From contig CACWZA010000001.1 in NCBI GenBank assembly GCA_902765215.1, positions 1 through 64,000 of the forward strand: DNA of 64,000 nt. Reading direction: 5' to 3'. The translations under genes and the position numbers were made by a program. The notes beneath the pieces are model-generated. The model searched no databases, had not been told where the DNA came from, and saw only the letters and a program-made list of their open reading frames with translations. The stretch comes from an uncultured bacterium. GTDB lineage: Bacteria > Cyanobacteriota > Vampirovibrionia > Gastranaerophilales > Gastranaerophilaceae. Positions 2,910 to 64,000 of this stretch are shown here, in pieces (positions within the stretch are counted from its first letter, which is position 1; each line of letters opens with the position of its first letter).

Positions 2910-4145
2910 ATGACAGATATTACCCCAACACTAAGTACTGTGCGTTCTTCAGGCACAATTACCCCAAATAAAACAAATACTCAGAGAACATATATTAATG
3001 GAAAAACTACAGACAGAATAGAAAAAGTTAATAACTCTGCAATAAAAGAAAAGTCTGAAAGAATGCTTTTATCACTTTTAAAGACAGGGCTCAGCGGGGA
3101 AGAACTTGATAAATCCGAGTTTTTAAACGCAACAAAAGAGGACTGGAAGAAAGTTCTTGAACTGGGGAACGAATCATCTGTCACCGCAATCTTACTCGAC
3201 GGAGCAGAAAAACTCCCTAAAAACAGCATACCGCACGAAACACTTATAGAAATGCTCACATACAGAGCAAATGCAGAAAAAGAACACGCTAAACGACTTC
3301 AAATAATAAGCGAACTGACCGAAAAATTTGATAAAAGAGGGGTTGATACAGTCCACCTCAAAGGGGTTGGTTTCTCGATGAATTATCCAAAACCAAACCA
3401 CAGATTTGGCTGCGATATTGATATCTTCACAAGATTACACGGTCAGGAAACAACAAACCTGTCAAATTCTTACAATATCGCTGACGGCGTAATGATAGAA
3501 GAAGGTCTTGAAGTCGGCTCTTACAACAATCCAAACGCAAAACACAGCGAATTCAGATACAACGGGGTTGAAGTAGATAATCACAAGTATTTCATTGCAA
3601 AGAAACAATTCCCTTACGCAGCAAAACTTGATGAATATTTACACAAAAACCTCAAACCGCATGAACAACTTTTACCTAACGGCAAAAAAGTACTTGTTCC
3701 GTCAAAAGAATTTAACACAATTTTTATCTCACATCACGCATTCCAGCACCATGTTATAAACGAGCTTAACCTCCACCACCTTACAGACTGGAGCATGCAT
3801 GTAAAAAATAACGGGTTGGAACTGCCGGAGGAAGCAAAGGGAACACCGTTTGAAAAATTCACTTATGCCCTCACAAACCTGTCTAACAGATACCTCGGCA
3901 CAAATGTAAAAGTTCCTGAGGACAGAAAATATGAAGACAAACTGATGCAGGAAATTATCCACCCGAAATGGATAGATAAACCAAGTCCTGAATTAAACAA
4001 TTTTGAATTACTTATCCATAAAACAAAACGCTGCTTTAAGAATGCGAAACGTTCACACGAACTTGGCGGATACAACACTTTTGCTATCTTCGGTAAGGCT
4101 GCTTTACATAAACTGCTTAATCCGACAACACTTTTTGTAAGATAA
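2910..4145 (+). CDS. NTP_transf_5-like nucleotidyltransferase, paralog 1
   Basis: A 411-aa protein resembling the putative nucleotidyltransferase family NTP_transf_5. The core is LKGVGFSMNYPKP then HRFGCDIDIF (about residues 150-173), with the metal-binding DID at 169-171. A third acidic candidate is in VDNHKYF (about 223). A helical part follows with SHHAFQHH and LHHLTDWSMH. The first ~55 residues are low-complexity and Thr/Asn-rich, containing two ITP tripeptides. No signal peptide or membrane segment is seen. SD AAGGAG precedes the ATG. It is the first of three tandem paralogs, each with its own leader. The substrate is unknown; family members act on small molecules, peptides or polymers. 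Confidence 0.7.
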   Translation: MTDITPTLSTVRSSGTITPNKTNTQRTYINGKTTDRIEKVNNSAIKEKSERMLLSLLKTGLSGEELDKSEFLNATKEDWKKVLELGNESSVTAILLDGAEKLPKNSIPHETLIEMLTYRANAEKEHAKRLQIISELTEKFDKRGVDTVHLKGVGFSMNYPKPNHRFGCDIDIFTRLHGQETTNLSNSYNIADGVMIEEGLEVGSYNNPNAKHSEFRYNGVEVDNHKYFIAKKQFPYAAKLDEYLHKNLKPHEQLLPNGKKVLVPSKEFNTIFISHHAFQHHVINELNLHHLTDWSMHVKNNGLELPEEAKGTPFEKFTYALTNLSNRYLGTNVKVPEDRKYEDKLMQEIIHPKWIDKPSPELNNFELLIHKTKRCFKNAKRSHELGGYNTFAIFGKAALHKLLNPTTLFVR

Positions 4146-4170
4146 CAAAATATTACAAATTTTAATACTA

Positions 4171-4202
4171 CTAGCAAATAATATTTTTAGGCTCCTTAAG
4201 AT
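4171..4202 (+). promoter_or_regulatory. shared promoter-like element, copy 2
   Basis: CTAGCA (4171-4176), exactly 20 nt, then TAAGAT (4197-4202). The spacer carries the core ATTTTTAGGC. The ATG is 26 nt from the -10 start. An inverted repeat AGGCTCCTTA / TAAGGAGTCT (4189-4198 and 4208-4217) overlaps the element and includes the SD. Confidence 0.55.
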
Positions 4203-4222
4203 AAACATAAGGAGTCTTATTT

Positions 4223-5449
4223 ATGAATACAATTACCCCATTAACAAGCACTCAAGGTGCTGTATCAATAAACTCTAAGAACGCAAACCGCAGAGCGTTT
4301 TTAGGAACAAACGGTGTAGATAAAGTAGAAAAAATAGGGAACACAAACCCTAACGAAAAACCGGTAAAAATGTTGTTATCACTGCTTCGTTCTTCACTCA
4401 GCGGAGAAGAAATCCAACAGGAAGCCTTCAAAGGTGCAAACTATCACGACTGGACAACAATGTTAACAATCGCTCACCGTTCATCAACAACCGGTATTGC
4501 ATACGATTCATTAAAAAAACTCCCTAAAGGCACAGTTCCTACAGGCATTTCTTTAAAAATGGCTGAATATATAAGAGAAATTGAAGATAAATATGCAAGA
4601 CAAGAAGCTGTTCTTACAGATTTATCAAAACAATATGGCGAAAAAGGTATCGAAACAATTGCACTCAAAGGGCTCGGTTCATCACTTAACTACCCTGTTC
4701 CACAACACAGACACGGCAGAGATATCGATATCTTCACAAGATTTAAAAACACTGTAACGGAAGATCGTTCAAACTCAACCGAGCTTGTTGACGATATGAT
4801 GATAGAAAAAGGTATACAGGTAGAAGACTACAGAGTTCCAAAAGCTAAACACAGTGAATTTTTATACAACGATTTGGTTGTAGAAAACCACAAATACTTT
4901 GTAAACAAAGAGGCAATGCCGGAAGCAAAAAAAATCGATGCAATTTTACACAAAGTATTGAACCCTGTTGAAAAAACTCTTCCGAGCGGAACAAAAATAT
5001 TAACTCCGTCTAAAGAGTTTAACACAGTTTTCTTGGCACAACACGCATTCCAGCACTATGCCTTCGGCGGAATAGATTTACACAACCTCGTCGACTGGAG
5101 CATGCATATTAAACAAAACGGAATCTGTTTCCCTGAAGAACTTAAAGGTACAAAAGTTGAAGAATTTGCAAATGCACTCACTAATGTGTCAAACAAATAT
5201 TTAGGTACAAATGTTGAAGCACCTAAAAACGAAGCTTACGAAAAAAGATTGTTTGAAAAAATTCTTCACCCTGATCCTGTCAGACCGCCTGAAAACCTCA
5301 GCAATTATGAAATCATAATGTTTAAAACAAAACGTTTCCTTAACAGATTCAATGAAACAAAAGAATTGACAGGAAGAAGCTTATCAAACGCAATAATTCA
5401 TTCCGTAAAAGCACACCTGAGAAAACCCGGTACAATTTTAGGAATATAA
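4223..5449 (+). CDS. NTP_transf_5-like nucleotidyltransferase, paralog 2
   Basis: A 408-aa paralog of the preceding gene, colinear over its whole length. The catalytic region reads LKGLGSSLNYPVP then HRHGRDIDIF, keeping the DID metal triad pair, and VENHKYF supplies a glutamate at the position of the third acid. AQHAFQHYAFGGIDLHNLVDWSMH matches the helical part of paralog 1. The N-terminal ~40 residues vary but keep an ITP near the start and a block NRRAFLGTNGVDKVEK that is shared in pattern with the other two. SD AAGGAG. Function unknown; intact active-site residues argue that it is an enzyme and not a relic. Confidence 0.7.
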   Translation: MNTITPLTSTQGAVSINSKNANRRAFLGTNGVDKVEKIGNTNPNEKPVKMLLSLLRSSLSGEEIQQEAFKGANYHDWTTMLTIAHRSSTTGIAYDSLKKLPKGTVPTGISLKMAEYIREIEDKYARQEAVLTDLSKQYGEKGIETIALKGLGSSLNYPVPQHRHGRDIDIFTRFKNTVTEDRSNSTELVDDMMIEKGIQVEDYRVPKAKHSEFLYNDLVVENHKYFVNKEAMPEAKKIDAILHKVLNPVEKTLPSGTKILTPSKEFNTVFLAQHAFQHYAFGGIDLHNLVDWSMHIKQNGICFPEELKGTKVEEFANALTNVSNKYLGTNVEAPKNEAYEKRLFEKILHPDPVRPPENLSNYEIIMFKTKRFLNRFNETKELTGRSLSNAIIHSVKAHLRKPGTILGI

Positions 5450-5474
5450 GTTTCTTTAACAAATCTTATTAAAT

Positions 5475-5506
5475 CTGGCAAAAAATATTTTTAGGCTCCT
5501 TATAAT
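5475..5506 (+). promoter_or_regulatory. shared promoter-like element, copy 3
   Basis: CTGGCA (5475-5480), exactly 20 nt, then a perfect TATAAT (5501-5506). The spacer carries ATTTTTAGGC. The ATG is 26 nt from the -10 start. The same inverted repeat as in copy 2 is present (5493-5502 and 5512-5521). Confidence 0.6.
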
Positions 5507-5526
5507 AAACATAAGGAGTCTTATTT

Positions 5527-6759
5527 ATGAATGCAACTACCCCGGGCATTTTAGAAACACAAAATATACCGTATATAAAACCCCAAGAAAAAGCCACCGG
5601 CAGAGCGTTTTTGCGTGCAGCAGGCACAGACAGGGTTGAAACAGGAAACATAAACCCGCTCAGCAAACCCGTAACAATGCTTATGTCAATGCTTAAAGCA
5701 TCTCTTGGGGATAAAGAAATCGATATGAATGCGTTCAAAGGCGCAAACTACCACGACTGGAACAAATTACTTGAAATAGCAAATGAATCAACAGTTACAG
5801 GCATGGCGTTAGATGCTGCAAATAAGCTTCCGAAAGGCACTATCCCAACGGGTATTGCAATAAAAATGGCTGAATTTGCCCTTGAAGAAGAAGAAAAACA
5901 TGCTTATCAGGAAAAAATTCTTGGCGAATTATCACAAAAACTGGAAAGCAAAGGGGCTGAAATGATTCAGCTTAAAGGAATAGGTTTCTCAATGAATTAC
6001 CCTGTTCCTCAACACAGATTTGGCGGTGACATTGATGTTTTCACCCGCAAAAAAGGTACAGTAACCGAAGGCTATTCAAACACATGGGATATGTTCAACA
6101 AAATGATGATTGAAGAAGGCTGCCTCGTTGAAGACCACAAACGCAAAAAACACAAACACAGTGAGTTTGATTATAAAGGTGTCAGAATTGAAAACCACAA
6201 TTATTTCTTAAACAAAGAAAGAATGATTGAGGCAGGCAAGATTGATGCATATCTGCACAAAACACTCAATCCGAGAGAACAAATCTTACCAAACGGAACA
6301 AAAATTCTTGTACCTTCAAAAGAATTTAACAGTGTATTTATGGCACATCACGCCTTCCAACACTATGTTTTCGGAGGAATTGACATTCACCACTTAACAG
6401 ACTGGGGTATGCACCTCAAAAAAGACGGATTTACTTTCCCTGAAGAATTAAAGGGCACAAGATTTGAAAAATTCACCTATGCGCTCACAAATCTTTCAAA
6501 CAAATATCTCGGCACAGATGTAAAAGTTCCCGAGGACAAAGAATACGAAGAAAAAATCTTCAAAAAACTTTTATACCAGAAAAAAGAAACTGTTCCTGAA
6601 AATTATAACAGTATTCAAACCTTTGCATTCAAGGTAAAACGCCTGTATGAACACGCAAAAACAGCAAAAGAATACACAGGAACTTCTATCTTCAGAGTTT
6701 TCGTTGATGCAGGGTTAATAAAGGTTGCAAACCCTAAAGCAATTTTAAGAAAATTATAA
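5527..6759 (+). CDS. NTP_transf_5-like nucleotidyltransferase, paralog 3
   Basis: A 410-aa paralog of the two genes before it. The core is LKGIGFSMNYPVP then HRFGGDIDVF, with IENHNYF for the third acid and AHHAFQHYVFGGIDIHHLTDWGMH in the helical part. The N-terminus again has a TTP near the start and a TGRAFLRAAGTDRVE block. Paralogs 2 and 3 look closer to each other than to paralog 1 (shared KGANYHDW and YVFGGID-type segments, near-identical leaders), which suggests a later second duplication. SD AAGGAG. A strong hairpin follows at 6770-6789, but its T tract serves the opposite strand. Confidence 0.7.
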   Translation: MNATTPGILETQNIPYIKPQEKATGRAFLRAAGTDRVETGNINPLSKPVTMLMSMLKASLGDKEIDMNAFKGANYHDWNKLLEIANESTVTGMALDAANKLPKGTIPTGIAIKMAEFALEEEEKHAYQEKILGELSQKLESKGAEMIQLKGIGFSMNYPVPQHRFGGDIDVFTRKKGTVTEGYSNTWDMFNKMMIEEGCLVEDHKRKKHKHSEFDYKGVRIENHNYFLNKERMIEAGKIDAYLHKTLNPREQILPNGTKILVPSKEFNSVFMAHHAFQHYVFGGIDIHHLTDWGMHLKKDGFTFPEELKGTRFEKFTYALTNLSNKYLGTDVKVPEDKEYEEKIFKKLLYQKKETVPENYNSIQTFAFKVKRLYEHAKTAKEYTGTSIFRVFVDAGLIKVANPKAILRKL

Positions 6760-34990: not shown

Positions 34991-35461
34991 TTAGCGGGAA
35001 GCAGACTCTTTAACAACCTTTTCTGATAATGCGATTTCATCTAAGATTTTTGCATTCATATTTTTATTTTTTGCAAAAAATGTGAGCATATATGCCATCG
35101 TATCAGCACCAAAATCTTTGAAATTGATTGGGAAATAGCTGTTTTTTGAAGCCATATCATAAGTTTCATCAGCCTTATCGCCAACAAACCCTGTTGAATT
35201 ATGCATTATCTCATTCTTTTTATCAACAACTCCGCCCTTTAATATAAGCTGATAGTTGTAACTAAATCTTTCGTGGAGTTTTGCAGGTGCATGACAAAAT
35301 TCCAAAACGGTATCATCAAACCCGTTATTCACGATATCCTTAAGTACCTGACGGTTTTCCTGAGTAATCCATTCAGGATGAGTTTCCAGTTTATGCATAA
35401 GTTTCGGACCTATTTTTGTCCCAAATGCAGTGTTAGAATTATAGTTGGTTGATAATTGCAT
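34991..35461 (-). CDS. small Phe-motif protein A1
   Basis: A 156-aa protein of unknown function. The start at 35461 has a good SD (AAAAGGGG), whereas the longer frame starts at TTG. It begins MQLSTNY with the short motif NTAFGTKIGPK soon after. The body, from NGFDDTVLEFCH through LKGGVVDKKNEIMHN to YFPINFKDFGADTMAYM, is clearly paralogous to the next gene (GGVMDKKNEVMRG, RFPIYIKNDGAETVRHI). There is no classical signal peptide. It has a shared promoter-like element upstream. Secretion or a host-directed role is speculation. Confidence 0.6.
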   Translation of the reverse strand: MQLSTNYNSNTAFGTKIGPKLMHKLETHPEWITQENRQVLKDIVNNGFDDTVLEFCHAPAKLHERFSYNYQLILKGGVVDKKNEIMHNSTGFVGDKADETYDMASKNSYFPINFKDFGADTMAYMLTFFAKNKNMNAKILDEIALSEKVVKESASR

Positions 35462-35492
35462 ATATAATCCCCTTTTAACATTCAAATGTATT

Positions 35493-35524
35493 TATATAAC
35501 ACCCGTAAAAAATAAATTTGCTAA
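35493..35524 (-). promoter_or_regulatory. shared promoter-like element, copy 4
   Basis: On the minus strand TTAGCA (35524-35519), exactly 20 nt containing TTTTTTACGGG, then TATATA (35498-35493). The SD-led ATG follows 37 nt after the -10 start. Confidence 0.5.
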
Positions 35525-35571
35525 AGGGGTAAATAAAGTGGTAAAGACAAAAGTTATAAAAGCAATTAAAT

Positions 35572-35600
35572 AGGAAGTGAATAATCACTTCCTGTTTTTT
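35572..35600. terminator. hairpin with plus-strand T tract
   Basis: A 9-bp stem AGGAAGTGA/TCACTTCCT with loop ATAA. The plus-strand side is followed by GTTTTTTAT, a good T tract, but no plus-strand gene precedes it. On the minus strand, where it would end the 165-aa gene, the T tract is weak. Confidence 0.5.
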
Positions 35601-35631
35601 ATATAGTTAGTTTAAACTCTTTTTACTTGCT

Positions 35632-36129
35632 TTATATACTTTCTTTGAACTGTTCAAACTCTTTATTAATTATTTTTGATTGTTCATATTCTTTTTCTAT
35701 TTTTTCAACAAGCAAATTTTTGCTGTCAAACTGTTTTGCAATATGGCGGACAGTTTCAGCACCATCATTTTTTATGTAGATAGGGAATCTGTCATCTGTT
35801 GCAAGTGTTTTACCTGTATAATTACCTGCGATGTAATTTTTAAAGATATAATAAATTCTGTCATAACCTCTCATGACTTCATTTTTCTTATCCATAACCC
35901 CGCCTGTGAGGTTTAATTTATAGTTGCAATGATAGAGTTCTCTTTCTTTTAAAGAAACATCTTCAAGCTCCAGCACGGAATTTATCCCGTTATTTCTAAT
36001 CATAGAAAGATTCTTAAAATTGTCACTCGTAAGAATATCTTTATTTCTCTGAATAAATCCCTGCAAATTTCTTCCGTATCTTGTTCCGAAAGAAGTGTTG
36101 TTCGCCGGTTGTACATTAACTATCTGCAT
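35632..36129 (-). CDS. small Phe-motif protein A2
   Basis: A 165-aa paralog of the gene at 34991. It begins MQIVNVQPANNTSFGTRYGRN: a short polar leader and the TSFGTRY motif. The shared core includes KLNLTGGVMDKKNEVMR and FPIYIKNDGAETVRHIA. The C-terminal ~35 residues are a Lys/Glu-rich helix. SD AAAGGA. Its leader does not contain a convincing copy of the shared element. Function unknown. Confidence 0.6.
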   Translation of the reverse strand: MQIVNVQPANNTSFGTRYGRNLQGFIQRNKDILTSDNFKNLSMIRNNGINSVLELEDVSLKERELYHCNYKLNLTGGVMDKKNEVMRGYDRIYYIFKNYIAGNYTGKTLATDDRFPIYIKNDGAETVRHIAKQFDSKNLLVEKIEKEYEQSKIINKEFEQFKESI

Positions 36130-36206
36130 AATATTATCCTTTTTCTTTTAATCGGTAACACTTGTGGTAAAACTAAATATATATTTACCCCTTATTACAT
36201 TTACCC

Positions 36207-36530
36207 CTAGCCCTTTTGTTTACCGTATTGACGGTATTCGTTGTTTTTAAGGGCATCTTTGATATAGTTATCCATTTTACCTTGAGTTTTAGGAACATTG
36301 TGTTTTTCAAACTTTTGGAAAACTTTGAACCCGATTTGTCTCAACTTTTGTTCAAACCCTTCATCAAGTCTTTTTCTTATTGAAACACGAACATTACCCT
36401 GATTACCGTTCGGGTATAATACATTCTGATATTTTGATGCCATGGCTTTTAGGGCATCTCTCTTTGCAGGTGATACATTCTGAGCCACCAGCGGTATTCT
36501 GTAAGTTGATGTAAATGATATGTCTGACAT
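36207..36530 (-). CDS. small Phe-motif protein B
   Basis: A 107-aa basic protein beginning MSDISFTSTYRIPLVAQNVSP. The ISFTSTYRIP stretch matches the position and pattern of the Phe motif in its neighbours, but the body (KRDALKAMASKYQNVLYPNG, helical and Lys-rich) is unrelated. SD AAGGAG. A shared promoter-like element lies upstream. Function unknown. Confidence 0.55.
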   Translation of the reverse strand: MSDISFTSTYRIPLVAQNVSPAKRDALKAMASKYQNVLYPNGNQGNVRVSIRKRLDEGFEQKLRQIGFKVFQKFEKHNVPKTQGKMDNYIKDALKNNEYRQYGKQKG

Positions 36531-36552
36531 AAATTACTCCTTATAAGTTTAT

Positions 36553-36584
36553 ATTTTAAAACCCGTAAAAATAAAATTTGCCGG
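36553..36584 (-). promoter_or_regulatory. shared promoter-like element, copy 5
   Basis: On the minus strand CCGGCA (36584-36579), exactly 20 nt containing ATTTTTACGGG, then TAAAAT (36558-36553). The ATG is 28 nt from the -10 start, as in copy 1. Confidence 0.55.
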
Positions 36585-36645
36585 ATAAAAATAAATTAAA
36601 AATTTATTTTATGATATATTAAAGGAAAAACAGGAGTTTAACAGA

Positions 36646-37299
36646 ATGATTACATTTCCAAAGGTTAGGGCAGTGAGTTATGCAATAGGCAAAAGATTGC
36701 AGGGGTATCATTTACTCCAAAACCCGAAGGGCACACCTCAAACCGAAGTTAATATGGTAAAAGAAAATTTTTACGGAACCACATCCTGTTGGGATGATAT
36801 TTTTCATATAACAAGATTAAAAAAGACTTTTTCAAAAGACGGCAACCATACAGAAAAAAGATTTTTAATGTCGACGCATTATATGGATGTTAACAGTATG
36901 AAAATGACCAAGCCGAGAAAAAAAGATATTAATTACAGTGTAAAAAAAGATGGGGATTATACTGTTTTTAAAGAAAGAGAAGATTTGGCATGGGAAGTAG
37001 CCGAAAAAAGAAAAGTGTCAAAATTATCATATAAACGCAGCGACTTATTTAAGCACGACAGTGAATACGATAAAATGTGTGCAACTAAAAGACACGCACA
37101 ATGGGACAGAGGGTATTACAAAACACACTATCCGTTGATGACTAAAATTCTTTCACTCGGTATGCATAAAAGAATGGCATATCCGTCAGACAACAGACCA
37201 AACTTCTTTAAGGTTTTATACCAAAATTTAACAAACAAACCAAACCTTCCGCCGGAACAAAAATATGATATAAGACCTAATTTTAAACATTTAGTCTAG
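36646..37299 (+). CDS. hypothetical basic protein
   Basis: A 217-aa strongly basic protein, rich in Lys, Arg, His and Tyr, with no signal peptide or membrane segment. The N-terminal MITFPKVRAVSYAIGKRL has a Phe-Pro near the start but not the typical neighbour motif. SD AGGAG. It is divergent from protein B and shares its intergenic region. Nothing in the sequence identifies a fold; nucleic-acid binding is possible from the charge. Confidence 0.5.
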   Translation: MITFPKVRAVSYAIGKRLQGYHLLQNPKGTPQTEVNMVKENFYGTTSCWDDIFHITRLKKTFSKDGNHTEKRFLMSTHYMDVNSMKMTKPRKKDINYSVKKDGDYTVFKEREDLAWEVAEKRKVSKLSYKRSDLFKHDSEYDKMCATKRHAQWDRGYYKTHYPLMTKILSLGMHKRMAYPSDNRPNFFKVLYQNLTNKPNLPPEQKYDIRPNFKHLV

Positions 37300-37408
37300 T
37301 GAAGTTATATCGTAAATTTTTATTTAATTTTTGAACAAAATCACTTGTATTTGTTTTAAATTATGATACATTATACTTATCTGTAATCTTAAAAATTTAG
37401 GGGTCTTA

Positions 37409-37936
37409 ATGCAAGTACAAAAGCTGCAAACTAACAATTATAATCCGCAGTTTAAAATGAAAATACTTCCAACCGAATCGGTGAAGTATGCTGTTTTGAC
37501 ATCAAGAAATATGATTGAATCGCCGAATTATTACGACACCCACAGGGGTTTTGTCAGAACTTTTTGTAACAGTCTTGCAAGGATATTAAAAAGCAAGCAG
37601 GCAGAACGAATATGGGCAAGTGTATGCAGGGGCAGTCGTAACGAAATCACCCCTTCTTATGTTGAAGAATATTATAAAACAGGCGAGTCAAAACATGTGC
37701 TTTCCTTAAACAGCATACAGGAAAACGAACATCGTTACGGGGATATGGCATATTCACAGGAAGGCGGGAATATGATGAGAACGATAATTGAATATTCTAA
37801 AACAATCAAAGATGTTCCGGAACAAAACCTGAATCTGAAAATGGATGCAGACTTAGCCAATTATGCGTACGATGTATTAAAGGAAGATTTACACAATGAC
37901 ATTACAGGGTTTTATAACCCGGGATTTAAAATTTAA
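37409..37936 (+). CDS. small Phe-motif protein C
   Basis: A 175-aa protein beginning MQVQKLQTNNYNPQFKMKILPTE: a Gln/Asn-rich leader followed by PQFKMKI at the position of the Phe motif in proteins A1, A2 and B. The body is unrelated and mostly helical (LARILKSKQAERIWASVCRG, MMRTIIEYSKTI). It ends in FYNPGFKI. SD AGGGG. Its 3' end is two bases from the convergent tyrS stop. Function unknown. Confidence 0.55.
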   Translation: MQVQKLQTNNYNPQFKMKILPTESVKYAVLTSRNMIESPNYYDTHRGFVRTFCNSLARILKSKQAERIWASVCRGSRNEITPSYVEEYYKTGESKHVLSLNSIQENEHRYGDMAYSQEGGNMMRTIIEYSKTIKDVPEQNLNLKMDADLANYAYDVLKEDLHNDITGFYNPGFKI

Positions 37937-37938
37937 CC

Positions 37939-39165
37939 CTAGCCTTTATAAATTGCCTTGTTAAAATGTTTTTTACCTTTTTTAATCTTGAGCCCTGATT
38001 TTAAATCATCAGCGGTAAATGTTTTATTCAGCTCATTTATTGGAGCATCATCAACTGTTACCCCGCCCTGCTGGATAAGGCGTTTTGCTTCCCCTCTGCT
38101 TTGAGCGAATTTGCACTTAATAAGCAGATTTAAAATATCAATAACACCGTTTTCTAAATCAGAATCAGCGATTTCAGTTTCAGGCATGTTTGCATCATCA
38201 CCCGCACCGCCAAACAATGCTCTTGCTGATGCCTGCGCTTTATCTGCTTCTTCTTTACCATGAACAAGTTCTGTAAGATGATATGCAAGAAGTTCTTTCT
38301 TTTCGTTAATTCTTGAATCTTCCCAGTTTGCGATTTCTTCTATTTCTTCAATAGGAATAAATGTTAACAGTTTAAAGCACTTCATAACATCAGCGTCATC
38401 AACATTTCTCCAGTATTGATAGAACTCAAACGGGCTTGTCTTATTCGGGTCTAACCAAACAGCACCTTTAGCGGTTTTACCCATCTTCTTACCTTCAGAA
38501 TTCATTAAAAGTGTAATTGTCATAGCATAAGCATCATCACCGGTTTTCTTTCTGATAAGTTCAGTACCCGCAAGCATATTACTCCACTGGTCATCACCGC
38601 CAAACTGCATATTGCAGCCAAAGTGTTCATGGAGATAGTAGAAGTCAAATGCCTGCATAATCATATAGTTAAATTCAAGAAAACTTAAACCTTTTTCCAT
38701 TCTTTGTTTATAACATTCCGCTCTGAGCATATTGTTTACGGAAAAACATGCCCCAACCTCTCTCAAAAGTTCGATATAATTCAGTTTCAAAAGCCAGTCT
38801 GCGTTATTAACCATAATCGCATCGTCTTCGCCGAATTTAATAAATCTTTCCATCTGTTTTTTGAAACAGTCACAATTATGCTGAATAACCTCAGGTGTCA
38901 TCATAGAGCGCATATCCGTTCTGCCTGACGGATCACCGATATAACCGGTTCCGCCCCCAATCAGAACAACAGGTTTATTACCTGCCATTTGTAACCTTTT
39001 CATAAGGCATAATGCCATAAAGTGACCTACATGAAGAGAATCCGCAGTAGGATCAAACCCGATATAAAATCTTGCACCGCCGTTATTTATCAGCTCTCTG
39101 ATTTCATCATTATCGGTAACTTGTGCAATTAATCCTCTCGCCTGTAACTCTTCAAATATTTTCAT
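37939..39165 (-). CDS. tyrS: tyrosyl-tRNA synthetase
   Basis: TyrS charges tRNA-Tyr. The 408-aa class I synthetase has the HIGH-type motif FDPTADSLHVGHF (about residue 39), the tyrosine-binding GGDDQWSNM (about 187) and the KMSKS-type loop KMGKTAKGAVW (about 226). A C-terminal S4 RNA-binding domain runs from about 340 (IDILNLLIKCKFAQSRGEAKRLIQQGG). The start is the ATG at 39165; the frame opens at a TTG just before it. SD AAAGGGA is present. Length and domains are normal. Confidence 0.96.
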   Translation of the reverse strand: MKIFEELQARGLIAQVTDNDEIRELINNGGARFYIGFDPTADSLHVGHFMALCLMKRLQMAGNKPVVLIGGGTGYIGDPSGRTDMRSMMTPEVIQHNCDCFKKQMERFIKFGEDDAIMVNNADWLLKLNYIELLREVGACFSVNNMLRAECYKQRMEKGLSFLEFNYMIMQAFDFYYLHEHFGCNMQFGGDDQWSNMLAGTELIRKKTGDDAYAMTITLLMNSEGKKMGKTAKGAVWLDPNKTSPFEFYQYWRNVDDADVMKCFKLLTFIPIEEIEEIANWEDSRINEKKELLAYHLTELVHGKEEADKAQASARALFGGAGDDANMPETEIADSDLENGVIDILNLLIKCKFAQSRGEAKRLIQQGGVTVDDAPINELNKTFTADDLKSGLKIKKGKKHFNKAIYKG

Positions 39166-39219
39166 CAATATGTCCCTTTCTTCTATAACACAATGATAGC
39201 ATAAACATTATTTTTTGAA

Positions 39220-58116: not shown

Positions 58117-59142
58117 TTAGTATGTAAACTTATAAGTTTGTCCGCCCTTTTTGATTGTAAACTGAAGCGGTTTCGGATCATCCTTGAATTTTAAACAAAG
58201 TATTCTCATTGAAGAATTTGCCTTTAACTCATAATTTTCAGGTAAAGAATGAGCATATCTTGACGCTTCTTTTATAACTCTTGCAAGTCTTACATTGTTT
58301 GCAACGGTAAAACCTAATGACAATCCGCCGGTAGCAACTGCTAACGGAACGCCTAAATTATCAGCAAGGTCTAATCTGTCCATATCCACAAATGTTGATG
58401 TTGTAACATCCTTAAGTGATGCAAGTCTTTCTGAGGAAACTTTTTCTACCATTATGTCAGCATCCGAATTATTTTTAACAACATATTCAAATGCGTGAAC
58501 ATATTTATTTTCTTTATTCTTTAAACGATATTCATTGACTGTAACAGTAACATCAGCATTTGCATTATAAAATTCTTCTGAGTCAACACAAGTTAAATCA
58601 ATCGGATCATTATCCTCTGAATACTCAATAGCAGAAGTTTTTTCATTCCCTTTTGACATTTTATCATTTAATTTACTCATACCTTTTTTAAGCGGTTTTA
58701 AACCGTCAGGAAGCGTAAATAAACCGTCTAACGCACCTGATCTTGCATAATCTACAAAATCAAACTTATATTCTTTGTATGCCTCCTCATCTTCAAGTGT
58801 TTCATAATCATAGTTCTGACTTTTAAAGAACTCAGTAACTCCGTTATCATCTTTATCATATTTAGTATCCGTTACAATGTATACATCAGTATCGTGCAAA
58901 GCAGGATAGAATTTCATATAATAATGTTCATCACCGTACGCTGCATAATACGCATTTCTTGCAAGCTTCTTTACCTCGACTTCTTTACCTAAAATGCTGT
59001 CTACCACAGGTACAACTTTTCTGATATTTTGACCTTTGATTCTGTATGCGTGATAGTCTTTTATCATTCCGGCAGCATTTGCTGTTGCTGCGAATAGTAC
59101 AAGTAACGATAAAACACAAAAACCTTTTAGCAATTTTTTCAT
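58117..59142 (-). CDS. secreted paralogous protein 1 (with 60409-61455)
   Basis: A 341-aa exported protein (signal peptide MKKLLKGFCVLSLLVLFAA, cleaved near NAA). It is a paralog of the protein at 60409-61455: shared blocks are ENKYVHAFEYVVKN, SERLASLKDVTTSTFVDMDRLDL, ALPENYELK and LKFKDDPKPLQFTIK. Residues about 240-260 have Gly-rich hydrophobic sequence. The start at the ATG 59142 follows the SD AGGAGA and overlaps nothing, one base after the transporter stop. Fold and function are unknown; location suggests an envelope role. Confidence 0.6.
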   Translation of the reverse strand: MKKLLKGFCVLSLLVLFAATANAAGMIKDYHAYRIKGQNIRKVVPVVDSILGKEVEVKKLARNAYYAAYGDEHYYMKFYPALHDTDVYIVTDTKYDKDDNGVTEFFKSQNYDYETLEDEEAYKEYKFDFVDYARSGALDGLFTLPDGLKPLKKGMSKLNDKMSKGNEKTSAIEYSEDNDPIDLTCVDSEEFYNANADVTVTVNEYRLKNKENKYVHAFEYVVKNNSDADIMVEKVSSERLASLKDVTTSTFVDMDRLDLADNLGVPLAVATGGLSLGFTVANNVRLARVIKEASRYAHSLPENYELKANSSMRILCLKFKDDPKPLQFTIKKGGQTYKFTY

Positions 59143-60408: not shown

Positions 60409-61455
60409 ATGAAAAAGATTGTAAGATTATTGGTTTTAGTGTTGATGATAACACTGGTAAATTCAGGCATTGTTTCTGCGAAAATCTCAAAGAATTTTTA
60501 CGGTTATCAGGTAAAAGATGTCAATATCAGACAACTTACCTATGAAATAAACAATGCTATTGAAGAATATAAGGGTGACGATAAATTCGTACCGCTGGAA
60601 AATGTTCAAAATGCTTATATATATACTGATCCTAATTGCACATATTTCATTAAAGTATATCCTGCAAAAGGGGATACTAATATTTATGTAGTTTCAAACG
60701 AAAAATATGATGTTGAAAAAAATGAACTGATTGATTTTTTCAATCAGGCAGGTTATAAAGTTACGAAATTAGAAGACAGAGATGCTTTAAGAGAATACAA
60801 ATTTGATTTCTTCACTTTGGCAAGAAAAAATGAATTAGGTAATTTCTACATTTCACCTGATTTGGTAAAACCATTAAAAACAGGTATGAAAAAATTAAAC
60901 AACAAAATGGCTAAAGATAACAAAAAGACATCCGTATTCGCTTATACTCCGGATAAAGATCCTATCGATCTTAATTGCATAGATTCAACAAACATGTATG
61001 ATGAAGCGGCAAAAATATCTATTGTTCAAAACGAATATCGTCTGAAACAAAAAGAAAACAAATATGTTCACGCTTTTGAATATCTTGTAATCAATAAAAA
61101 TAATTCAACGGCAACGGTTAATGCAACGAGTGAAAGATTAGCATCACTTAAAGATGTAACAACAGAATCATTCGTCGATTTAGACAGACTTGATTTGATT
61201 GATACAGTCGGCTCTTTCCCTCCTGTAGTTGTTTGTACCGCAGGTACTTCATTATTATGTAGTGTTCCTAACTGGGTAAGACTGGCAAGAATTACGGCTG
61301 AATCAAAGAGATTTACCAATGCTTTGCCTGAAAATTATGAACTTAAACCACAGGCTGAAATGAGAATTTTAGTTTTGAAATATAAAGACGATCCTAAACC
61401 GATTAATTTTAATTTTAAATTTGCAAACGGTGAAACTTACAATATTTCATTCTAA
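60409..61455 (+). CDS. secreted paralogous protein 2 (with 58117-59142)
   Basis: A 348-aa exported protein (signal peptide with core LLVLVLMITLVNSGIVSA). It aligns along its length with the protein at 58117-59142: KENKYVHAFEYLVIN, SERLASLKDVTTESFVDLDRLDL, LPENYELK and LKYKDDPKPINFNFK are shared. The two lie on opposite strands either side of the transporter gene. SD AGGAG before the ATG. Function unknown; the conserved beta-rich core suggests a new envelope family. Confidence 0.6.
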   Translation: MKKIVRLLVLVLMITLVNSGIVSAKISKNFYGYQVKDVNIRQLTYEINNAIEEYKGDDKFVPLENVQNAYIYTDPNCTYFIKVYPAKGDTNIYVVSNEKYDVEKNELIDFFNQAGYKVTKLEDRDALREYKFDFFTLARKNELGNFYISPDLVKPLKTGMKKLNNKMAKDNKKTSVFAYTPDKDPIDLNCIDSTNMYDEAAKISIVQNEYRLKQKENKYVHAFEYLVINKNNSTATVNATSERLASLKDVTTESFVDLDRLDLIDTVGSFPPVVVCTAGTSLLCSVPNWVRLARITAESKRFTNALPENYELKPQAEMRILVLKYKDDPKPINFNFKFANGETYNISF

Positions 61456-61514: not shown

Positions 61515-63914
61515 TTAGTGAAATCCTGTTTCATCAAATTTATTAAAGATATATTCGCCGTTTTCAGCAACTAATCTGTCATCGTGACCTGTAATTTTCA
61601 ACTCATAAAAGTTTGGCCCGAGTTTCTTTATCCCCGATGTTCCGCGTTTTGTCGCAATCTGAGGGAGTGCATATTCAAACGCATCAAAGTATTCCAAACA
61701 TTTAGGGAAATGATAATATTCAAGTATTTCCTGTTTTGCTTTTGGTGCTATTGTTGCCTTTACCTTCTTTGACTCGTTCAGCTGAGCCATATCCGTTGTC
61801 GGAACTTTAGTATATTCCTCCTCTATAATTGCTTTCAAGAGGGTTTTATCCAGTTCATCTTTTTTATCAAAAATAGAAAGTATTTTAGAAATTTTTGATT
61901 TCTCAACATCTGACATATCGAGATAATCATCATATTTGCACAAATATTCAACTGCCTTATCCGTATCTTTACCCAAATTGTTCATAATGGTATCAGCAGC
62001 ACTTCTGTTTCTTGCAAATGCGAATGTCTTAGGGTTCATTACAGCATCATAATTAATCAGATATTTACCTGCCTTATCGTAATCTATTTTGCCGTCTTTC
62101 CCTGTCGCAAATTCTTCAGCTTTCTTTAAGCCAACACTTTCAGGATAAAGTTTTTTATATTCAAGATATTTCTTCCATCTTGTTATCTCTGTTGCCATTC
62201 TGTCTTTATTCAGAATTATATTTTTGTCGTTTTTATCTCTGTATTTATCAATCGTTTTAATTATATAATCACTTTTTAAATTCTGTTCCTTATCCAGAGT
62301 TGCAGGTCTGAACGGCGCACACAACTCTGCTGTATATGCCATATTATTCAGATAAAGCAGATTAATTCTGTCGTCAAATTTTGACTGAATATGTTTCAGT
62401 TCGGCAACCGTTTTTTGTTCGGCTTTCATAATGCCTATTTGCTTTTGGCGTTCTGCCTCGTTAATTTTTTCTGTTCCGCTCGGTCTGATATTGTTTCTTT
62501 CAACATACTTAACAACATCCTGAACACTCTTTTTCCCGTCAAGTGCATCATCGGCTTCTCTGAGGAATTTTTTGAGCATATCGATATCCTCAGGGGTGAA
62601 CATACAAGAATTGAAGTTTACAAGTATATCAAGAAATCTTTCATCAGGGACTTGTCTATCGGCGTGAAATTCTAATCTTTTTCTGAAATCATCAACAGAG
62701 AAATAATCATAATTTCTCTGAGTGAATTTCATTTCATCACCCTGATTTATCAGAGTTTTTACTTTTTCCGGCATCTTAGAAAACTTATATTCAGAATTAC
62801 TTAATTCTGCTATTTTAATAGACTTTTGAACCCTGTTCCCCGGTTTGCCTTTGTTATACGAATATACAATTTCATTAGGTTTTTTAAACCCTAAATACTG
62901 CTCACGGATAACTGAAAGAACAAAATCGTTATAATCAACCGTCAACAGTTTTTTATCTCTGTCTGTTATAAGCTGCTGATTTTGTTTTCTTAAACAAGGA
63001 ATAGTAGAGAAACTGTCATTATCTCTCAGTTTTCTGTATCGTCTGCCAATATACGCAACCGTTGTTGAGAAGAGTTTTCTGTTTATTTCCGTCTTTTCTG
63101 CAGGAGTGGATTTTTTTAGCTGCTCGTCTAAAACAGAATTAACCTTTGCCGCAACAAATTCTTTTGCCCTGTCCTTATCCCCGCTTTTTTGTATATCGTC
63201 TAATTCTTCATAAAAATCTCTTGTCAGAGAACCTTCAATCTTTTTGGCAACAACCTCCTGCGGGTTTTTCGGGATATCAATTTTAGGATATCTCTGTTTC
63301 AGTTCTCTTATTGTTTGTACCTCATTAAGCCCTGAATAATAGTCTGTATAAACCCGACGCAAATCAAAATTTTCGTCCGTAACTGCAGACTTAAATTTGT
63401 TAATCAAAGCAAAATCCATTCTTGCATATTGAGGATCAACCTTAACCTTCGGGAGCTCAATAACAACATCAGAGTCAGACAATCGTTTTATCTTGTTCAT
63501 TTCTCTTTTTATCTTTTGCGCCTGCTCTCTTGCACTATGAGAAGAAGGGTCTGACACCATAGTCAGAATATTTGCTTCCTGTTGAAGCTTCAGTGCCTTA
63601 TTTGCCAGACTTTCCCAATACGCGTTTGCTTTGTTTAATTTATAAAGATGTATTTCCTCTTTAGTCATTTCCATTTCGGTAACATCATTCTTTAAAATCT
63701 CGTCAAACTGCCTTATCAGGTTTTCTTTTGACAATGCCAAATCAATCTTTGACGGAATGAATTTTTGAGGATTAAACTTAGCCGTAAAATAAACAGCAGG
63801 ATAACTGTATGACGGCAGTTTCTCGGCAGAAACAGGATTACTTACCGATGGATGCACACAATCTCTTGATTTATGGTTTGTTTGTAAACTTGGTATACCT
63901 TGAATTATTTTCAT
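61515..63914 (-). CDS. large helical Phe-motif protein with beta-rich C-terminus
   Basis: A 799-aa protein of unknown function. It begins MKIIQGIPSLQ, followed after a polar stretch by YPAVYFTAKFNPQK, matching the N-terminal Phe motif of the small proteins at 35-38 kb. The main body (about 70-730) is highly charged and helical. The last ~45 residues (IKKLGPNFYELKITGHDDRL, then EYIFNKFDETGFH) form a compact beta pattern that recalls RelE-like or other RNase-type toxin ends, but the match is weak. The start at 63914 is chosen because it fits the N-terminal pattern. An effector role is speculation. Confidence 0.5.
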   Translation of the reverse strand: MKIIQGIPSLQTNHKSRDCVHPSVSNPVSAEKLPSYSYPAVYFTAKFNPQKFIPSKIDLALSKENLIRQFDEILKNDVTEMEMTKEEIHLYKLNKANAYWESLANKALKLQQEANILTMVSDPSSHSAREQAQKIKREMNKIKRLSDSDVVIELPKVKVDPQYARMDFALINKFKSAVTDENFDLRRVYTDYYSGLNEVQTIRELKQRYPKIDIPKNPQEVVAKKIEGSLTRDFYEELDDIQKSGDKDRAKEFVAAKVNSVLDEQLKKSTPAEKTEINRKLFSTTVAYIGRRYRKLRDNDSFSTIPCLRKQNQQLITDRDKKLLTVDYNDFVLSVIREQYLGFKKPNEIVYSYNKGKPGNRVQKSIKIAELSNSEYKFSKMPEKVKTLINQGDEMKFTQRNYDYFSVDDFRKRLEFHADRQVPDERFLDILVNFNSCMFTPEDIDMLKKFLREADDALDGKKSVQDVVKYVERNNIRPSGTEKINEAERQKQIGIMKAEQKTVAELKHIQSKFDDRINLLYLNNMAYTAELCAPFRPATLDKEQNLKSDYIIKTIDKYRDKNDKNIILNKDRMATEITRWKKYLEYKKLYPESVGLKKAEEFATGKDGKIDYDKAGKYLINYDAVMNPKTFAFARNRSAADTIMNNLGKDTDKAVEYLCKYDDYLDMSDVEKSKISKILSIFDKKDELDKTLLKAIIEEEYTKVPTTDMAQLNESKKVKATIAPKAKQEILEYYHFPKCLEYFDAFEYALPQIATKRGTSGIKKLGPNFYELKITGHDDRLVAENGEYIFNKFDETGFH

Positions 63915-64000
63915 AATAAAACCTATGGTCATATAACGCATTGAAACATATTTTTTTGCTACCAAAAATCAGGAAAAACGGGATATTTTTACATTTTTTT

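Follow-up and report, generated by a model that had tools for sequence, protein, structure and literature searches.

Why do proteins with unrelated bodies begin with the same short, phenylalanine-centred motif? The question is raised by a 64,000-nucleotide stretch of DNA (the window; C1:1–64000 of a 2.15 Mb draft genome) from an uncultured Gastranaerophilaceae bacterium. Members of this order, most of them uncultured, have been described in animal guts, and the host bacterium is probably a gut-dwelling, non-photosynthetic relative of cyanobacteria. As an initial annotation had noticed, five proteins of the window combine a polar leader with a Phe motif (MQLSTNYNSNTAFGTKI, MQIVNVQPANNTSFGTRY, MSDISFTSTY, MQVQKLQTNNYNPQFKMKI and ...SYSYPAVYFTAKFN, for the genes named here by their first positions, 34991, 35632, 36207, 37409 and 61515), and their bodies are unrelated save for the 34991/35632 paralog pair (32% identity). 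Our preferred answer, to which we give roughly even chances, is that leader and motif together act as a modular sorting signal at the N-terminus, which most likely directs export through a filament-less flagellar-type type III apparatus. Four of the genes lie on the minus strand: 34991–35461 (156 amino acids (aa); leader and motif MQLSTNYNSNTA-FGTKI at 35411–35461), 35632–36129 (165 aa; MQIVNVQPANNTS-FGTRY at 36076–36129), 36207–36530 (107 aa; MSDIS-FTSTY at 36501–36530), and 61515–63914 (799 aa; leader and motif ending in AVY-FTAKFN at 63774–63914). The fifth, 37409–37936, is on the plus strand (175 aa; MQVQKLQTNNYNPQ-FKMKI at 37409–37465).

Evidence for a signal comes from a held-out test across 1.66 Mb of the genome, in which a home-made gene caller identified 1372 genes. 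Unsupervised motif discovery on all N-termini first gave signal peptides and amphipathic helices, and we therefore chose a supervised model, based on a listing of N-termini from the first 0.46 Mb that contained many leaders of the same kind. A position-specific scoring matrix (PSSM) was trained on 16 proteins from the window and loci L006–L025 and tested on 865 proteins from loci L106–L165; the training proteins were picked by eye, which influences sensitivity but not the held-out false-positive estimate. The window proteins score 9.6 (34991), 11.7 (35632), 5.5 (36207), 10.5 (37409), and 8.8 (61515). Among the held-out proteins, 28/865 N-termini score at least 5, where internal segments predict 0.8 and shuffled N-termini 2.3; independent families number somewhat fewer than 28 because some of these matches are paralogs (the L163 trio, L141/L119, and L107/L129). 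No protein reaches this score among 806 from Clostridia loci or among 272 from the sister clade f8, whose four sampled genomes (G081, G102, G121, and G147) are all listed without FlhB. The form of the motif given in the initial annotation, F-x-x-[KR], is not enriched when taken literally (231 at N-termini vs. 237 internal), nor is plain FG, and a more permissive regular expression, built only from the first part, shows weaker held-out enrichment (61 vs. 32). The annotation's proposal of a signal for targeting or export, or of a tag for interaction, is supported in the form of a sorting signal, while its motif is replaced by another around the same Phe.

Genome-wide, 57 proteins score at least 4.5, five of which were discarded by hand as likely false positives (a judgement), leaving 52 for the tests of composition, motif position and linkage and for the main upstream analyses. 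The tag marks about 4% of genes called. Its consensus, [N][NKQ][PVIT][SN]-F-[GTK]-[GASM]-[KRAN], occurs at residues 5–43 (Phe at median residue 18.5 among the 52) behind a leader rich in Asn, Ser, Gln, and Thr and poor in acidic residues (19% Asn and 3% acidic vs. 6% and 13% in the proteome). The informative positions are −2 (P/V/I/T in 45 of 52), −1 (S/N in 37), +1 (G/T/K in 42), and +2 (G/A/S/M in 44); K/R stands at +3 in one third of proteins. Leaders usually begin M-[NRQK]-[IV], with I/V at residue 3 in 30/52 (P = 2e-10), and these polar leaders contain no hydrophobic core of the Sec/Tat type (about 10–15 residues). The bodies that follow span 91–1426 aa and are mostly soluble and in many cases unrelated, with integral membrane proteins rare (a transmembrane-like segment in 5/57 motif proteins vs. 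287/1263 others). Pfam and NCBIfam return matches for few of them, and the types seen include GNAT, methyltransferase (CheR-like), AAA, and a PHP-like protein.

The motif is conserved where the leader is not. A motif-bearing family, A2 (L119:6842 and L141:531), is present in 135/146 genomes of the order, a survey within which order-level families f2–f7 are counted. In an alignment of 32 members the motif F is kept in 31/32 and G/A at +2 in 32/32, while leaders vary from 9 to 38 residues and share 28% identity, compared with 51% for the bodies. An AlphaFold2 model of A2 (predicted local distance difference test (pLDDT) score 82) leaves residues 1–18 disordered (pLDDT 30–39), and its best match in the PDB has E = 0.088; the model of the window paralogs is poor (pLDDT 56). 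Homologs of the window pair in genomes G008 and G005 retain SFGT[KR] behind altered leaders (for 35632, at loci L003 and L004). At L004, in G008, all three called genes (3/3) carry the leader, and in another record (L026) two further leader proteins, read by eye, stand beside the tyrosyl-tRNA synthetase (TyrRS) gene. The tag is modular, in that the tagged proteins L139:7244 and L127:2002 have tagless paralogs. The 61515 protein has homologs in 29/117 family genomes, with full-length alignments beginning at residues 8–60; a search of genome contigs returned no homologs. The 37409 protein has no further match in its own genome, and the neighboring gene at 36646–37299 lacks the Phe motif. As a separate observation, the two ends of the 37409–37936 protein resemble each other in motif, with NPQFKMKI close to the start and NPGFKI as its last residues.

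Many motif genes also share a bipartite upstream element, approximately T[AG]GCAAA-N12-15-GCGTT[TA]TAT, mostly 30–80 bases ahead of the start codon. In the window it precedes three of the five genes, as had been reported: TAGCAAA-N14-GTGTTATAT at 35494–35523 upstream of 34991, CGGCAAA-N12-GGGTTTTAA at 36556–36583 upstream of 36207, and TAGCAAA-N15-GCGTTATAT at 63931–63961 upstream of 61515, all on the minus strand. Because the first and last of these sit where longer readings of their genes begin, the downstream start codons are preferred, ATG 35461 most likely replacing TTG 35485 for 34991 and ATG 63914 most likely replacing TTG 63965 for 61515. A first model of the element was seeded by eye (two-fold cross-validation, P = 0.005 and 4e-7). 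An unseeded search of 51 upstream regions recovered GGCAAA-N13-17-GTTTTT with a log-likelihood of 97.5, vs. 36–54 in six equally large control sets (40 restarts for the motif set and 20 for each control). Strict matches at 40–75 bases are found for 22 genes, among them 11/59 motif-scoring genes (a fuller list than the 52; P = 2e-10, partly circular since the pattern was derived from motif genes). In non-motif genes, the element is weakly linked to leader score (P = 0.05). The GGCAAA-N13-17-GTTTT element is promoter-like and may act as a promoter. A further copy on the plus strand (2857–2884) lies upstream of 2910–4145, the first of three adjacent genes (2910, 4223, and 5527, within 2910–6759) that each encode about 410 aa and have near-identical ribosome-binding regions; the 2910 protein has a polar leader but no Phe motif, although its gene has the element. 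The gene at L152:2323 starts like the 2910 gene, and the element is also found there.

N-terminal restriction, held-out prediction, and retention of the Phe while the leader drifts argue for a sorting signal rather than a folded domain, as do the tagless paralogs, the disordered leader of the model, and the shared upstream element. The signal would consist of the disordered leader followed by [N][NKQ][PVIT][SN]-F-[GTK]-[GASM] where leader and body meet, joined to many unrelated bodies, many of them under one upstream element. A flagellar-type type III apparatus (FlhA, FlhB, FliOPQR, FliH, FliI, FliE, FliF, and rod proteins) would most likely read the leader, and by analogy the Phe motif may serve for docking at the export gate or on a chaperone while the unfolded leader is threaded first. 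What links the signal to such an apparatus is leader composition, the lack of a Sec-type core and of VirB4, the patchy spread of some bodies, and the body types.

Genes for this apparatus are widespread. FHIPEP and FliP are present in 57/58 genomes, the exception being G081 of clade f8, while flagellin is found in 31/58 genomes searched and Flagellin_N has no match in the host genome or in seven same-genus genomes. FliP occurs mostly in two copies in genomes with flagellin and mostly in one in those without. The host genome encodes FliE-FliF-FliG-like-FliH-FlhA (L017), FliM-like/FliO/FliP/FliQ/FliR (L110; FliP by search and the rest by reading), FlhB with NPTH (L020), a FliI-type ATPase (L107), and FlgB/FlgC/FlgG-like rod genes (L140); the closest structures to its FlhA and FlhB are flagellar. 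The VirB4 ATPase is absent from 25 genomes (0/25), the host genome included. By gene content, this is a filament-less flagellar-type apparatus. In the class sample A2 occurs in families f1, f9, and f15, all with FlhB; it was not matched in the listed f8 and f10–f14 genomes, though several of f10, f11, f12, and f14 have FlhB, and A2-positive genome G047 is one in which FlhB was not seen.

Several additional features of these loci deserve mention. L113:6405–7865 (G000:C2:106828–107835) encodes a stand-alone FlhA/SctV cytoplasmic domain (FHIPEP 321–655) behind an unrelated N-terminal part, and the partial FHIPEP class that matches it, a third FHIPEP class, recurs in many of the order's genomes. 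L017:8971–9891, which directly follows FlhA but runs on the other strand, encodes a subtilase-like protein without the leader (PF00082, E = 7e-6), and a motif protein (L017:9991) stands beside it. Next to the FliI-type ATPase, L107:13113–14090 and L107:14193–14378 have different bodies behind a common N-terminal stretch, VYSPSYNAVQINMDTPTVNA, perhaps a second N-terminal tag.

Known type III signals offer a mixed comparison. The gate recognition motif of early flagellar subunits has the form F-x-x-x-hydrophobic, which all five window proteins fit. In those subunits 30 or more residues separate it from the N-terminus, and a spacing of 26 or more keeps it apart from an N-terminal hydrophobic signal (PMC8983047). 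Our proteins resemble this two-part arrangement, with a non-polar residue early in the leader (I/V at residue 3 in 30/52) and a short hydrophobic docking motif downstream. Effector signals of injectisomes, as captured by EffectiveT3, show Ser, Thr, and Pro elevated and Leu, Ala, acidic, and basic residues depleted in the first 25 residues (PMC2669295). Over the same interval motif proteins are elevated in Ser, Thr, and Pro (P = 0.002, 0.01, and 5e-7, respectively) and depleted in Leu, Ala, and acidic residues (P = 1e-14, 0.03, and 2e-12), with no difference in basic residues (P = 0.9). Like injectisome effectors, they combine an extreme N-terminal, disordered, Ser/Thr/Pro- and polar-rich, Leu- and acid-poor signal with unrelated soluble bodies of patchy, effector-like distribution; in contrast to that motif-free compositional signal, theirs, a putative secretion signal, centers on a sharply defined Phe motif and is strongly biased toward Asn/Gln (PMC2669295).

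The apparatus itself also has partial precedents. Buchnera retains filament-less flagellar basal bodies for which no secreted proteins have been recognized (PMC8109811). Our bacterium, probably also host-associated, likewise retains genes for the basal body and for flagellar type III export whose use in motility is doubtful, but differs in having a large candidate substrate set and flagellated relatives with a second export gene set. Non-flagellar type III secretion systems, including the secretin-less Myxo group, likewise have an export apparatus without a flagellum (PMC3459982). Such systems are recognized by the lack of flagellum-specific genes, whereas FlgB/FlgC/FlgG-like rod genes, FliE, and flagellar-closest FlhA and FlhB are present here. 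No injectisome needle or secretin was identified, the latter not having been searched for by profile.

If the proteins are exported, delivery into another cell seems more plausible than release into gut fluid, because several bodies resemble enzymes using acetyl-CoA, S-adenosylmethionine (SAM), or ATP. A bolder version, which we consider possible but well short of even chances, is that in members of this order a flagellar basal body has been turned into a dedicated protein-injection device, with the motif signal, partly under one promoter class, sending dozens of fast-changing effectors into neighboring cells (gut protists, host cells, or other microbes). Several observations weigh against export. 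Four motif genes lie within 5 kb of apparatus genes vs. 2.1 expected, which is not a significant excess (P = 0.16), and the export-apparatus genes lack the shared upstream element. The hydrophobic +4 residue of the gate motif is not significantly enriched (23/52, background 0.34; P = 0.09), and the median Phe position of 18.5 falls short of the 30 or more residues of early flagellar subunits (PMC8983047). Two same-family genomes give 0/124 matches at a score of at least 3 (in one of them, G039, leaders were seen by eye, at L166:6874 and L257), and some class members with FlhB have no match at 5 or above. The first samples of related genomes are too small for ranking clades. Finally, acetyl-CoA, SAM, and ATP are equally at hand in the bacterium's own cytoplasm, and the A2-family bodies have several hydrophobic helices and may merely be inner-membrane proteins.

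Much of the same evidence is accounted for by a tag that works inside the cell. Leader and Phe motif would bind one conserved partner (at the pole, the inner envelope face, a scaffold, a chaperone, or a protease adaptor) and recruit enzymes to it with no export, consistent with GNAT, AAA, and CheR/methyltransferase-like bodies that require cytoplasmic cofactors, with the nonsignificant linkage to export genes, and with the near-universal, housekeeping-like presence of A2 in the order. The patchy spread of many bodies (3/98, 29/117, and 39/117 genomes) and the type III-like composition suit effectors better, and we judge such docking rather unlikely. Export or processing might also follow a different route, such as through a dedicated ABC exporter/protease or an undescribed envelope-sorting system. 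This would suit a motif tighter than the described type III signal (PMC2669295), and F-x-[GAS] could be a processing site. We consider this route improbable: the leaders have no hydrophobic core, VirB4 is absent, bodies of 91–1426 aa do not resemble the substrates of peptide exporters, and neither a protease nor an exporter emerged as a candidate. A double-glycine or RiPP (ribosomally synthesized and post-translationally modified peptide) leader was rejected, given the large bodies and the absence of a GG site. A last rival is that the genome is AT-rich and the leaders are merely disordered tails of its fast-evolving orphan genes, the Phe standing at the domain boundary through chance or as part of the fold. 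This fits their low-complexity, Asn-rich character and the lack of enrichment of literal F-x-x-[KR], but is very improbable. The held-out test, in which shuffled N-termini with unchanged composition yield 2.3 matches vs. 28, largely refutes it, and the specific residues at −2, −1, +1, and +2, the Phe kept in 31/32, and the common upstream element also speak against it.

Should the preferred reading as an export signal hold, it would change how flagellar genes in this group are interpreted. Published work has dealt with flagella or their partial loss (PMC3787301; PMC5877343); incomplete gene sets in the order have been taken as genome reduction (PMC3787301) and, by Soo et al. 2014 (cited in PMC5877343), as indicating non-motility. 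In the titles and abstracts found by searches on the group, outside subscription papers and preprints, neither an N-terminal motif nor a type III role is described. With an export signal, the incomplete flagellar sets would amount to a functioning secretion machine whose substrates can be read from sequence, and searching for the motif would list the candidates of each genome. The tag gives a direct test of filament-less basal body function, and even if it works internally, about 4% of called genes would bear a sorting code specific to the lineage.

Two other features of the window are recorded here. The TyrRS gene (37939–39168) has its closest database relatives at about 70–83%, many of them labeled Clostridia, a pattern that suggests transfer between groups or mislabeled metagenome-assembled genomes and makes TyrRS a poor taxonomic marker. 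The genes at 58117–59142 and 60409–61455 encode similar signal-peptide proteins that both contain YKFDF and SERLASLKDVTT stretches; they lie on opposite strands, with the gene of a predicted membrane protein between them.

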